64,000 bases of DNA from Candidatus Altimarinota bacterium. GTDB taxonomy: Bacteria; Patescibacteriota; Gracilibacteria; BD1-5; UBA2023. This document shows, piece after piece, positions 5,605-49,094 of this stretch. Both the position numbers and the translations under genes were made by a program. The first letter of the stretch is position 1; each line of letters opens with the position of its first letter. Under the pieces are notes generated by a model, which saw nothing but the letters and a program-made list of their open reading frames with translations, did no database searches and was not told where the DNA came from. Location: contig JAQTON010000001.1 of the NCBI GenBank assembly GCA_028713325.1, forward strand, positions 124,001-188,000, written 5' to 3'.

Positions 5605-6129
5605 ATGATTAATGCTTTTGGAGGGAATTGTATTAGGGTTACGACATGAGAATCGGAAAGACCTATTTTATTCGGTGCGGGTATAATGGAATTATCCCGT
5701 AACAGTAATCAAGCTCATTGTTACACATATGCTAAAATAGACGGGGAATTCAGGCACCATACCGGAACATGACTTCCTGCCTATACTGACTCTGTGCGTT
5801 TTCGTGTCGCAGACATAATTCCTCTTTGCCCGATAAGCAAAGGGTTATTGTGTCAAGACGTGGAAATCCTGCAGGATGAAGTGTGGAGAAAAGTTTCCAA
5901 ACATCTCTGCTTGCATTCCATGGTAGAGGCGGGGCTTTCTGATGAGGAGATGAAGAGGTATCGGTCCTTGTTGCTAAAGGGCCAAAAATTTCAGTTGGCA
6001 GATTATGAAAAGTTATTTCTTGAGAGAGTAAAAGAGCAATCAACATTCTTCTTGCAACGTTTCAAAGAAAATCTTCTTTATCAAAGAAATCGGGAAGGTT
6101 GAAACGCCGGGAAAGTAGAGTTATTTTAA
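5605..6129 (+). CDS. Hypothetical protein, 174 aa
   Basis: ATG at 5605, TAA at 6127-6129, read through three TGA codons. There is no signal peptide or membrane segment. The N-terminal half is Gly/Thr/Arg-mixed. The C-terminal half (about 90-165) is charged and probably helical (EEMKRYRSLLLKG, then YEKLFLERVKEQ). No family recognised. It stands alone between the tRNA cluster and a membrane protein and is closed by a strong terminator. Confidence 0.65.
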
Positions 6130-46049: not shown

Positions 46050-47051
46050 TTATTTTAGATTAACATTAAATTCTAATAATTTTTCATTATACTCTGGTGA
46101 AAGACTTTTTATAAAAGAAAGGTGTCATCATAGTATTTGTTTAAATTTTTCTATACTGGAAATGTTTACCTCATTTACTTTATTCCATTTACTTAGTTCA
46201 CTACCGAATCAACTTTTAGAAATGTTATAAAATATAGATTTGAACTTTTTAAAATGCTTTCTTCAAACTCATATTTTGTTGTTTACCACAACTCCAGTAA
46301 TTTTTTGCTGTTTTCAGGCTGAGATAAGATGAATTTTTTTATAGTTTGGAAAAAATCATTCTTCCAAAAGAATAGATATAATGTAATTTATTAAAATACT
46401 TACCTTTATTTTCTTGTTAAAAGAAAAAGTTAAATCATCGGCATATCTTGAATAAGATAGGTCTAATCAGGTATTTCCTTCATTATATGACTTTAAAAGT
46501 CATATCAATTTATAATCTAGAAATCTGGCTATTAAGTTTGATAAAGTTGGGCTCGTTGGAGCTCATTGAGGCAATTGATTATTGTAACAACATAATGACG
46601 AAATATACATAGATGTTGCATGATCTAAATCATACTCCTTTCTTAGTAATCCATAAACTCTGTCTTGTGTTATGCTTGGAAAAAAATCTTTTATGTCTAC
46701 TTTTAGAATAAACTTCTTGGCAATATGAAACTCTGCATTGTTTTTTATGCTTTTTCAGGGAATAAATCAGGTAACATTATTGGTTAATAACTCACTTGAT
46801 TTTTTATATAAGATTTTTTGTAAAATTAATCTCTGAGCACTTTTTAATTTAAAAACTGGTGAATATAAAGTTCTTACTCATCAAGTTCTTTTTGGAATCT
46901 CAATTTTCTTATATTTTCATTTTTTTGACATGGCAAAAAATTTCAATTCCTTTTCAGTGAATCAAAATAACTTTAACAAATCTAATTTTATGTTTTTAGA
47001 TGAATAGATATCGTTTTCCGTATCTAGAGCACCACCTTTTTTATCTTCCAT
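46050..47051 (-). CDS. Retron-type reverse transcriptase
   Basis: 333 residues, ATG 47051, TAA 46050, 16 of 22 glycines are TGA. RT motifs in order: KRTGGVRTLYSPVFKLKSAQ, the retron-specific NAEFH (about 104-108, the NAxxH motif), LKVDIKDFFPSI, LPQGAPTSPTLSNL, the catalytic YSRYADDL (Y202-D205), EGFFPNYKKIHLIS, and ITG (about 252, the VTG-like motif that binds the RNA). It makes multicopy single-stranded DNA from its own msr-msd RNA, which lies 248 nt upstream on the same strand. No intron maturase, Cas or variable-repeat features. Confidence 0.93.
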
Positions 47052-47220
47052 AAGAATAAAATTAATTACCTAATTGAGTTTTATAAATTACTATTTTTTC
47101 ATTTCTAAGAAATAGAATAAAAAGAAATTTTCGATAAATGCATACAAAAAGAAAAAATATTTTTATTCTATAAATACAATGAAATTGTAATTTTTGCTTG
47201 CATAAACAAAGTTTACTATT

Positions 47221-47273
47221 GAATAGACTTAATCTATTCCGTGATTTATAATTACCACTAACTCTAATTTATA
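47221..47273 (-). repeat. Partial second copy of the msr hairpins
   Basis: On the minus strand this stretch reads ATAAATTAGAGTTAGTGG, a hairpin (GTG...CAC), then GGAATAGATTAAGTCTATTC. It parallels 47474-47521, where the same order occurs (ATAATTTAGTG, a GTAGTT/AACTAC hairpin, GGAATAGATTAAGTCTGTTC). It lies between the 3' end of the msd and the reverse transcriptase. A further hairpin TACAAT/ATTGTA lies at 47176-47193. Confidence 0.6.
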
Positions 47274-47298
47274 AAACTCAAACATATAATTAACTTAA

Positions 47299-47530
47299 AC
47301 TAACCTTATAATTTACTATTTTTCCCTCCAATGCGGCACTCGTCAAAAAGCTTTAGCTTTGACGAGTGCAGGAGAAAAATGTAATTTTTCCCTGCTGATT
47401 GAATTTTTCAAATTCAATCAGCGGATAATTACGAAGTAATTATAATTGCGTAGCAATATATAACCTTTTCATAGAACAGACTTAATCTATTCCGTAGTTT
47501 TTAACTACAACACTAAATTATAAGGCTAGT
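47299..47530 (-). ncRNA. Candidate retron msr-msd RNA, about 232 nt
   Basis: The 5' end ACTAGCCTTATAATTTA (47514-47530) and 3' end TAAATTATAAGGTTAGT (47299-47315) pair over 17 bp with one G-U, as the a1/a2 arms of retron RNAs do. TAGC in the 5' arm offers the branching G. Inside, in order: hairpins GTAGTT/AACTAC, GAATAGA/TCTGTTC, TTGC/GCAA and TAATTAC/GTAATTA (msr-like), then GCTGATTGAATTT and complement, and a long composite arm with TTTTTCTCC/GGAGGGAAAAA enclosing GCACTCGTCAAA/TTTGACGAGTGC (msd-like). It lies directly between the upstream gene's stop (47549) and the RT. The boundary and branch position are inferred. Confidence 0.75.
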
Positions 47531-47548
47531 ATAAAACAATTATTTAGC

Positions 47549-48556
47549 TTAAAGCTTATCTACAAATTTTCACTTTGAAATACTGACTATATCACTAATG
47601 CATTTTCATCAATCCTTTGCTATAAAATAGGTATATGGGTAATTCGTATATTTATCAAATTTTGAATCCTCTTTATGAATAACGTGTTTATCGATCGATA
47701 AGTATTCAAATGTCTCTTTTAGCTCCCTATATTTTGGTATTCAATAAAAAGAAGACATTTCTTTGTAGAGTGTTTGGAGCTTTATTGATTTAATAATAAC
47801 TAAGTTATTAACAACCATTTGTAAATCTTTAACCAGTAGATATAGATTTTTAATATATTCTTCTGAATACAGATCGGTAAATTCATTCAGATTTATTTCG
47901 CCAATCTTTTTATATAGTATCTCAAGTAGTAGTTTCTCAGTTTTATTAGAGTTGATTCAGATATTATTTAATGTTTTGTCAGGATAGGACAAATTTTTAC
48001 TTTGTTTCCTCTTGTTATTATCTTTAATAATATCATCGACTATGCTTATATAAAAAATAACATTGTGCGTTTTTATGGAGTCAATTGATTCAGAGAGTTT
48101 TGAATTGGTAAAAATAAAAAATAAGTAATTGTTATCATTTTTATCTTTTTGAAAATTTATATTCTGAACAAAGTTTCTTATAGCCTTAAAAATTCAATCA
48201 TTTTTTGTTATAGTGGAATCTTTTCATCATTTTGTTTTTGCTTGAATAAAAATCAAGTTATCAAACTTACCTGAATTATTACCTGATAGTAGATTAATAT
48301 CTTCAAAGCATAATTCTTCTCATTCAAGCATTATATCAATCTTTGTATGAAAATTATCTCAAAATCTTTTACTACAAACATCTCTAAAGCGTAAAATATT
48401 TTTACTAAATATTTTCAAATCTTCAGACAAAAGCTTGGATTTTACGAGCTTATATTTATTATTCTTTAATAATGTAAATATAAACAAAGACAAAAGCCAT
48501 TGAAATATATATCCTCATCATTTTCAATGATCTATTTCTGAATAATCTATTTCCAT
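47549..48556 (-). CDS. Putative nuclease-like protein upstream of the retron RNA
   Basis: 335 residues, ATG 48556, TAA 47549, 13 of 17 glycines are TGA. The N-terminal 120 residues recall DUF4297/Cap4-type (PD-(D/E)XK-like) nucleases: GGYIFQWLLSLF (14-25), LEGEELCFEDI (77-87) and IFIQAKTKGG (102-111), i.e. the E..D..Q-x-K order. The C-terminal two thirds are helical and unrecognised. The stop is only 19 nt from the first arm of the msr-msd, so the gene and the RNA are in one transcript. The similarity is weak. A DNA-binding accessory role is the main alternative. Confidence 0.6.
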
Positions 48557-48803: not shown

Positions 48804-48978
48804 TAGTGGGTTCACCAGGGCTCTTTTTTCTCAGTGTCGTCCCGATTTCATCGGATCTCGCTTCGAAAAACGCCTTGCCTAAAAAGCCAAATCGTTGGCT
48901 TTTTACCGAATCGCCACTTCGTGGACGATACGGAAGGCTGCGGTTTCTCGCCCCGGGCAGATTCATCTTTTTGTCACT
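48804..48978 (-). repeat. Palindromic element with degenerate copy of the tRNA-Lys 3' end
   Basis: 48804-48823 matches the last 20 nt of tRNA-Lys (49019-49038) at 18 of 20 positions (CCA has become CTA). Between the two are hairpins including TCCAC/GTGGA around 48917-48928 and the 20-nt core 48883-48902 that is identical to the core in the tRNA-Glu element at 5368-5387. As at tRNA-Glu, the order along the tRNA strand is gene, terminator, palindromes, copied tRNA end. Confidence 0.65.
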
Positions 48979-49009
48979 AAAAAGACCCCGTAAAAACGGA
49001 GTCTTTTTT
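48979..49009 (-). terminator. Terminator of tRNA-Lys
   Basis: AAAAAGAC(T/C)CCGT/ACGGGGTCTTTTT stem on the minus strand, 10 nt after CCA. Confidence 0.8.
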
Positions 49010-49018
49010 GATGACAAA

Positions 49019-49094
49019 TGGTGGGTTCACCGGGGCTCGAACCCGGGACCTTCGCCTTAAAAGGGCGCTGCTCTACCAACTGAGCTATAAACCC
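49019..49094 (-). tRNA. tRNA-Lys (TTT)
   Basis: Acceptor GGGTTTA/TGAACCC, anticodon TTT at 49059-49061 in loop CTTTTAA, T-loop TTCGAGC, encoded CCA. It borders the retron island. Confidence 0.95.

Follow-up and report, generated by a model that had tools for sequence, protein, structure and literature searches.

A minus-strand locus in a 64,000-nt stretch of a recoded bacterial genome (the window) features two adjacent RNA units of the msr-msd plan, which lie between a gene for a Cap4-like nuclease and a single retron-type reverse transcriptase (RT) gene. The locus is probably a retron defence operon with a duplicated msr-msd template, in which one RT would make two msDNAs and the Cap4-like nuclease would be under their control; part of this reading we infer. 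A more specific proposal, for which the case is evenly balanced, is that the locus represents a new retron type in a recoded lineage, in which two msDNAs, one structured and one nearly linear, jointly sense infection and control the nuclease. The components themselves, a retron RNA, an RT and a guarded nuclease, are of already known kinds.

Genomic Context

The locus is located in an AT-rich island at about 44.3–48.6 kb with 25.6% G+C, compared with 43% in the surroundings. The order on the minus strand is ORF A (Cap4-like), the RNA region, the retron-type RT, and an OLD-type ATPase-TOPRIM gene (Table 1). The genes of the island are open throughout only when UGA is read as Gly (table 25, named for SR1 and Gracilibacteria), and the host genome, which consists of five contigs, is UGA-recoded and Gracilibacteria-like. 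A search for terminator-like sites on the minus strand between ORF A and the RT found none.

A partial copy of a tRNA-Lys 3′-end (GTGGGTTCACC at 48806 and 49021; window 48806–49094) flanks the island. A different AT-rich stretch precedes the equivalent tRNA-Lys segment in the congener G451, so the tRNA-Lys may be a site of insertion. No RT match was found in six congeners; however, a clean empty site was not demonstrated because the gene order near the tRNA-Lys differs among those inspected. The same genome encodes another RT (L001, 1279–2478), near a small protein (120–443) whose end we take to resemble a DGR variable protein, and a third RT (L003, 958–2406).

Table 1. Coordinates of the features of the locus in the window.
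Feature	Position	Strand	Basis
OLD-type ATPase-TOPRIM, 548 aa	44379..46025	-	PADLOC Old 9e-63
Retron-type RT, 333 aa, 16 UGA codons	46050..47051	-	RVT_1 3.3e-20; family profile vs Ec86 RT 1.7e-58
Unit 2, second msr-msd (probable)	47074..47281	-	R1 match 47173-47281, 81.2 bits, E 9.3e-14; direct repeat D1
Unit 2 arm a2, 17 nt	47074..47090	-	Pairs with a1; fold and covariation
Unit 2 msd (putative), single 12-bp stem with large loop	47112..47171	-	1/60 shuffles as good in the window
Unit 2 copy of 9-bp/3-nt msr hairpin	47220..47240	-	Repeat and covariation analysis
Probable branching G, unit 2	47264	-	Equivalent position relative to a1; predicted
Unit 2 arm a1, 17 nt	47265..47281	-	Perfect pairing with 47074-47090; 2/17 pairs compensatory
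Unit 1, msr-msd with structured msd	47300..47529	-	Fold z -11.8; R1 match 47425-47529, 99.9 bits, E 1.5e-17
Unit 1 arm a2	47300..47315	-	Pairs with a1; fold and covariation
Unit 1 msd hairpins	47336..47422	-	Inner part z -7.2 in the window
Unit 1 msr hairpin, 9-bp stem, UAA loop	47473..47493	-	Conserved and covarying in 8 tandem units, 97.2% of cells paired
Probable branching G, unit 1	47513	-	First base past a1; G in 12/12 units; predicted
Unit 1 arm a1	47514..47529	-	Includes TAGC 47525-47528; 5/16 pairs compensatory among four loci
ORF A, Cap4-like PD-(D/E)XK nuclease, probable effector, 335 aa	47549..48556	-	Fold comparison; upstream of unit(s) and RT

Two RNA Units in Tandem

A preliminary description of this DNA had proposed a single msr-msd at 47299–47530, just before the RT, with a possible branching G in a TAGC. 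The msr-msd part stood: the inverted repeat is real, in that CTAGCCTTATAATTTA (47529–47514) pairs fully with TAAATTATAAGGTTAG (47315–47300) on the minus strand with one G-U pair, the fold places short hairpins first and longer ones after between the arms, and the RT gene (46050–47051), open only with UGA as Gly, comes next downstream on that strand. The plan is further backed by covariation, homologous loci, and the retron-type RT. What had been overlooked is the second unit at 47074–47281, and the TAGC branch did not hold.

The fold of the minus strand over 47040–47560 reveals two closed units side by side, each with a long terminal stem of 17 pairs when G-U is counted. The predicted folding energy of this 521-nt RNA region is -156.4 kcal/mol (z -11.6), a value that none of 100 shuffles matched. 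The two units share a 41-nt direct repeat (D1) with 83% identity, which is located within the msr, and unit 2 begins 18 nt past unit 1. The order ORF A, unit 1, unit 2, RT is found in four genomes: the window's, G457 (L016, a Gracilibacteria MAG and the closest relative with a name), G491 (L052), and G475 (L053). The spacings across these loci are nearly constant, with 9–19 nt between ORF A and unit 1, 18–19 nt between the units, and 21–22 nt between unit 2 and the RT start.

Unit 1 features a structured inner part in all four tandem loci, with z -7.2 in the window and -4.6, -4.2, and -3.6 in the relatives, and the four share the sequence-conserved pieces GGGAAAAAT with ATTTTTC, and GCT[AG]AAGC. 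Its arms carry a mismatch at two positions, in one locus each. The spacer between the units (47282–47299) can pair with the gap between unit 2 and the RT start (47052–47073), which extends the unit 2 stem in the folds of the window, G457, G491, and G475, and this pairing might couple the RNA to RT translation; in an alternative fold of the window the spacer pairs upstream of unit 1 instead.

The Predicted Branch Site

Retrons feature a priming G within or right after a1, usually in TAGC, and the branching G is placed right after the a1 stem in published retrons (PMC6868368). The TAGC of unit 1 was rejected as the branch. It sits inside a1 (47528–47525), at the outer end of the arm, and is replaced by CTAATC in G491. 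The doubt already voiced in the preliminary description, that the true branch G or a1 boundary lay elsewhere, was well placed: in all 12 units compared (8 tandem, 4 single), UA closes a1 and a G follows immediately. Since this G is invariant and the relatives G440 and G456 read TAGC at exactly this position, the branch is predicted to lie at G47513 in unit 1 and at G47264 in unit 2. Each of the 8 tandem units reads TAGT or TAGA here, and the single units of G462 and G423 read TAGT. The base following the predicted branch G is thus U or A in the tandem units compared with the usual C, which speaks against a two-template reading.

Covariation and Chance Tests

The arms and two hairpins were compared across the eight tandem units. 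In this comparison 98.2% of cells are paired and 12 of 29 pairs are changed on both sides. None of 500 shuffles equalled the observed paired fraction, the covariation score, or the counts of pairs and of cells with changes on both sides, though 177 of 500 had as many pair types. When the partners were slid by 1–3 columns, pairing fell to 35–45%. Part of this contrast reflects the difference between unit 1 and unit 2; within each kind, compensatory arm pairs number 5 of 16 for unit 1 and 2 of 17 for unit 2. The lack of covariation among homologues that the preliminary description had named as counter-evidence was therefore not seen, as the unit 1 arms covary. For unit 2 alone, 1 of 500 shuffles reached the paired fraction and score, 50 of 500 had at least the four pairs with changes on both sides, and 427 of 500 had as many pair types, a weaker result that is expected because there are only four sequences. 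The ends of retron RNAs pair over about 8–30 nt, and here the arms are 16 and 17 bp with covariation. The msr of a retron has 1–3 hairpins of about 7–10 bp, and all eight tandem units have a 9-bp stem with a 3-nt loop.

A covariance model of the msr part (R1) was built from the six units of the three other tandem loci, with the window excluded. R1 gave two strong matches in the window (Table 1); the next is on the other strand at chance level (18.5 bits, E 0.52), and the third-best match over the window's whole genome has E 0.34. Over 341 class genomes there are five with E<=0.01, four of which have exactly two matches >80 bits, three of these four having supplied training units; the fifth is G494. 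R1 also finds the single unit of G423 (28.5 bits, E 0.0048), and at E<=1 the single units of G440, G456, and G462 were not recovered. The search with retron covariance models that had been suggested earlier gave, with Rfam, no retron RNA match: at the gathering score the whole window has only tRNAs, and at a relaxed score 47030–47570 has only three miRNA chance matches and no retron family.

A single stem of at least 17 at the spacing of unit 1 occurred in 5 of 300 dinucleotide shuffles, so that the single repeat is only moderately surprising, AT-rich DNA being able to yield such stems. Two non-overlapping units with stems of at least 17 occurred in 0 of 300 shuffles of the window. The same test is weak for G457, where 17 of 300 shuffles reach it because a mismatch splits the unit 1 arm. 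A generic search for stems in the DNA preceding 46 RT loci was too blunt, as its cut-off removed the arms of L004 (the window) and L034 and missed both. L005 (0 of 50 shuffles) and, less strongly, L028 (1 of 50) were picked out, and inspection of these two folds by eye found no repeated msr.

The Role of Unit 2

The two units differ in their inner parts. The msd of a retron is a long hairpin, for which unit 1 has several strong hairpins and unit 2 has one stem. This long-range stem of unit 2 covers 12, 18, 10, and 11 positions in the four loci and is matched by 1, 0, 11, and 2 of 60 shuffles, the weak case (11 of 60) being G491. The inner part of unit 2 is near the stability of its shuffles (z -1.6, -0.5, 0.1, and -1.1 in the four loci), and the unit is AT-rich with a length of 208–261 nt. 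The inner parts are 56% identical among units 1, 54% among units 2, and 39% between the two.

Because the inner part hardly exceeds its shuffles and the stem is weak in G491, unit 2 could be a non-template RNA. Unit 1 would then be the sole msr-msd, and unit 2 a derived RNA that is not copied, still carries the arms and the RT-binding hairpin, and serves as a decoy, a scaffold, or a leader for RT expression. This is considered unlikely, though it deserves more weight than the other alternatives. It would account for an inner region that is unstructured by energy, AT-rich, and divergent, as well as for the end of unit 2 at 21–22 nt before the RT start in four of four loci. However, the two arms persist in unit 2 with compensatory changes, as does the G that follows a1; a priming site would need these parts, and each unit 2 has a long-range stem at the msd position, though it is weak in one.

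Decay would also explain the AT-richness and variable length of unit 2, which would then be a neutral or functionless copy. This is very improbable, since both units are present in four genomes whose RTs are 59–69% identical to that of the window across the aligned span, the arms are kept with compensatory changes, and the msr tree splits units 1 from units 2 with a bootstrap of 94. The tree is unrooted with respect to the single-unit relatives, and its split suggests that the template copies are probably older than the divergence of the four loci. The retention of both copies in a fixed arrangement argues that both are used.

The Reverse Transcriptase and Related Loci

Retron RTs are defined in PMC6868368 by NAxxH in region X, YxDD, and VTG in region Y, and the RT of the window features NAEFH, YADD, and ITG. 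Residues N105, H109, Y203-A-D-D206, T252, and G253 are invariant in eight of eight RTs; the RT of G440 reads NSKSH, and the V of VTG is I in the window and G423. A profile of the RT family has the Ec86 RT as its best match among solved chains (1.7e-58), and the match to the Eco8 RT is far weaker (7.3e-11). Thirteen retron types are known (PMC12548924). No type is assigned here because the PADLOC scores of the RT are spread over the III-A, XI, XII, XIII, and II-A models, on which it scores alike, and its NCBIfam matches are below cut-off. Neither do the RT and effector together match a typed PADLOC pair.

Of 353 class genomes, 27 contain RT relatives at E<=1e-8, including the window's. Stretches were taken from 13 of these 27 and from one phylum-sample genome, and eight RT loci were read closely; the loci of G493, G486, G499, G483, G424, G442, G441, and G246 were covered by ORF listing and the blunt stem screen only. 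Besides the four tandem loci, G440 (L054) and G456 (L057) have ORF A, one unit, and the RT. G462 (L055) has one unit and the RT at a contig edge, where the C-terminal remainder of ORF A (E 9.3e-5) stops 7 nt short of the unit. In G423 (L056) a single unit and the RT lie at a contig end, so that the position of ORF A lies beyond the contig. A FastTree of the RTs separates the four tandem from the four single-unit loci with support 1.0. GTGTTAC is found in an msr hairpin loop of three of the four single-unit relatives (L054, L055, L056) and is absent from the eight tandem units.

A search of viral contigs with the RT found two distant relatives, and searches of viral contigs with profiles of ORF A and of the RT gave no matches. 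A contig in the bin of an uncultured archaeon (L017) has an RT with 39% identity and a compact single unit (~5752–5901) with TTAGCGC past the stem.

ORF A

Seven loci have ORF A upstream of the unit or units and the RT, one of the seven with just a weak C-terminal fragment. It was found in 9 of 341 class genomes: six have it in full, and the others are G494, G462 with its fragment, and G620 with a weak match. Among 379 genomes sampled from the phylum it was found in the window's genome only, and tblastn against plasmids and phages gave no matches. In G494 (L101, 2600–2956) ORF A is followed by an msr-like hairpin (GAATAGATTAAATCTATTC; a weak match of 33.4 bits) and then the contig end. This is possibly a fifth locus; the stretch past ORF A folds no better than its shuffles (z -0.35) and was excluded from the locus count.

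Searches of ORF A of the window against family databases, including PADLOC and NCBIfam, gave no match. Among six members of the family there is one weak PADLOC match (PDC-S05, 0.0055). The best score of the Pfam Cap4 model (PF14130), reached by one of the six, is 17.0 bits, which is below the gathering score of 26.2 bits, and another member has equally weak matches below cut-off to Raptor_N (5.4e-4) and DUF2299 (1.8e-3). The family invariants are G-x-G, QW, E, D, and QxK, and the predicted fold is helix-helix-three strands-helix-strand.

Two structure models of mediocre confidence were obtained (pLDDT 68.6 and 68.2). Foldseek gave unrelated top rows and no meaningful match with the first model; with the second it placed LmuA (2.9e-3, prob 0.99) and Cap4 (3.5e-3, 0.97) on top, with none at <=0.001. 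VIA ranked Cap4/DUF4297-type nucleases first with both models. With the second model the Z scores are 8.2 for HerA-DUF4297, 7.9 for the Hachiman nuclease, 7.7 for LmuA, 7.7 for Avs3, and 7.1 for Cap4, and rows 1–11 of the best 50 are all Cap4, LmuA, HerA-DUF, Hachiman, or Avs3 (Z 5.7–8.2), followed by a nickase at 5.5; only one row reaches Z 8, and below this value a match may mean just a common arrangement, and ORF A may also belong to a family that the VIA lists lack. Since most of the Z scores are below 8, a Cap4-like fold is likely, not proven, and ORF A is named Cap4-like here rather than Cap4.

The Downstream OLD Gene

The OLD gene starts 24 nt after the RT stop, and OLD is the effector of Retron-Eco8 (PMC12887533). 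The effector could by this precedent be the OLD nuclease, with ORF A a mere neighbour, and the gene also matches a PADLOC type I-B effector (2.7e-23, far below its Old match of 9e-63) and, weakly, the NCBIfam Eco8 effector (1.7e-15, 56.7 bits against a cut-off of 250). This is improbable, however, as the window is the only one of the four tandem loci with OLD after the RT, so that the conserved OLD of an Eco8-type system is lacking, whereas ORF A precedes the units in the four tandem and three single-unit loci (one a fragment). The RT is followed by an AAA_13 ATPase in G457 and by other genes in G491 and G475. The G457 gene (L016, 2678–4813; AAA_13-type, 711 aa) overlaps the RT end at the position that OLD occupies in the window, and a swap of a second effector is possible.

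Proposed Function

In a retron with two templates and ORF A as effector, both units would be cut from one transcript, and the single RT would recognize both of them through the common 9-bp/3-nt hairpin. By analogy, RT-Eco3 binds an msr 9-bp stem with a 3-base loop (PMC6868368), the same shape as the hairpin common to units 1 and 2. DNA synthesis would be primed from the 2′-OH of the G just past each a1, giving a hairpin-rich msDNA from unit 1 and a second, weakly structured msDNA from unit 2. Retron RT-RNA-DNA complexes have been described that restrain a toxic effector until a phage trigger (PMC12548924, PMC12948488). Here the RT-msDNA complex would keep the nuclease inactive until a phage activity damages, modifies, or binds one of the two DNAs; the freed nuclease would then cut DNA and kill the infected cell. 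The two msDNAs may act as separate sensors, which could extend the set of triggers, or may both belong to a single complex.

If this is true, a two-sensor retron would be directly testable, and the differing msd regions and common hairpin would reveal which RNA parts the RT requires. A Cap4-like effector would join the retron list, and such a system would be placed in small recoded bacteria. Multi-template arrays have been built for genome editing, and the tandem units would be a natural counterpart of them.

Comparison with Known Systems

A retron is presented in PMC6868368 and PMC12948488 as a system of one RT, one ncRNA, and an effector. In the open-access literature searched, outside which most subscription papers fall, no report was found of a tandem msr-msd and no link of a Cap4/DUF4297 effector with a retron RT. 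The Cap4/DUF4297 nucleases (CBASS Cap4, Lamassu LmuA, HerA-DUF4297, and Avs3) share with ORF A the predicted fold and the invariant E, D, and QxK; in contrast to them, ORF A is linked to an RT and an RNA and falls below the Pfam cut-off, and the searches found no second known domain. Retron-Eco8 combines an RT with an OLD nuclease, and the window likewise has an OLD-type ATPase-TOPRIM after the RT, but OLD is absent from the other tandem loci and the RT profile match is far weaker. The single-unit relatives G440, G456, and G462 have the same order of Cap4-like gene, unit, and RT (the G462 gene being the fragment at the contig end), although they have one unit instead of two, and G440 and G456 read TAGC at the predicted branch. 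Retron-Eco1 (Ec86) and other single-template retrons likewise feature a1/a2 arms, a G after a1, msr hairpins, and the RT downstream, whereas the present loci have tandem units, a Cap4-like effector, and TAGT or TAGA in place of TAGC at the branch.
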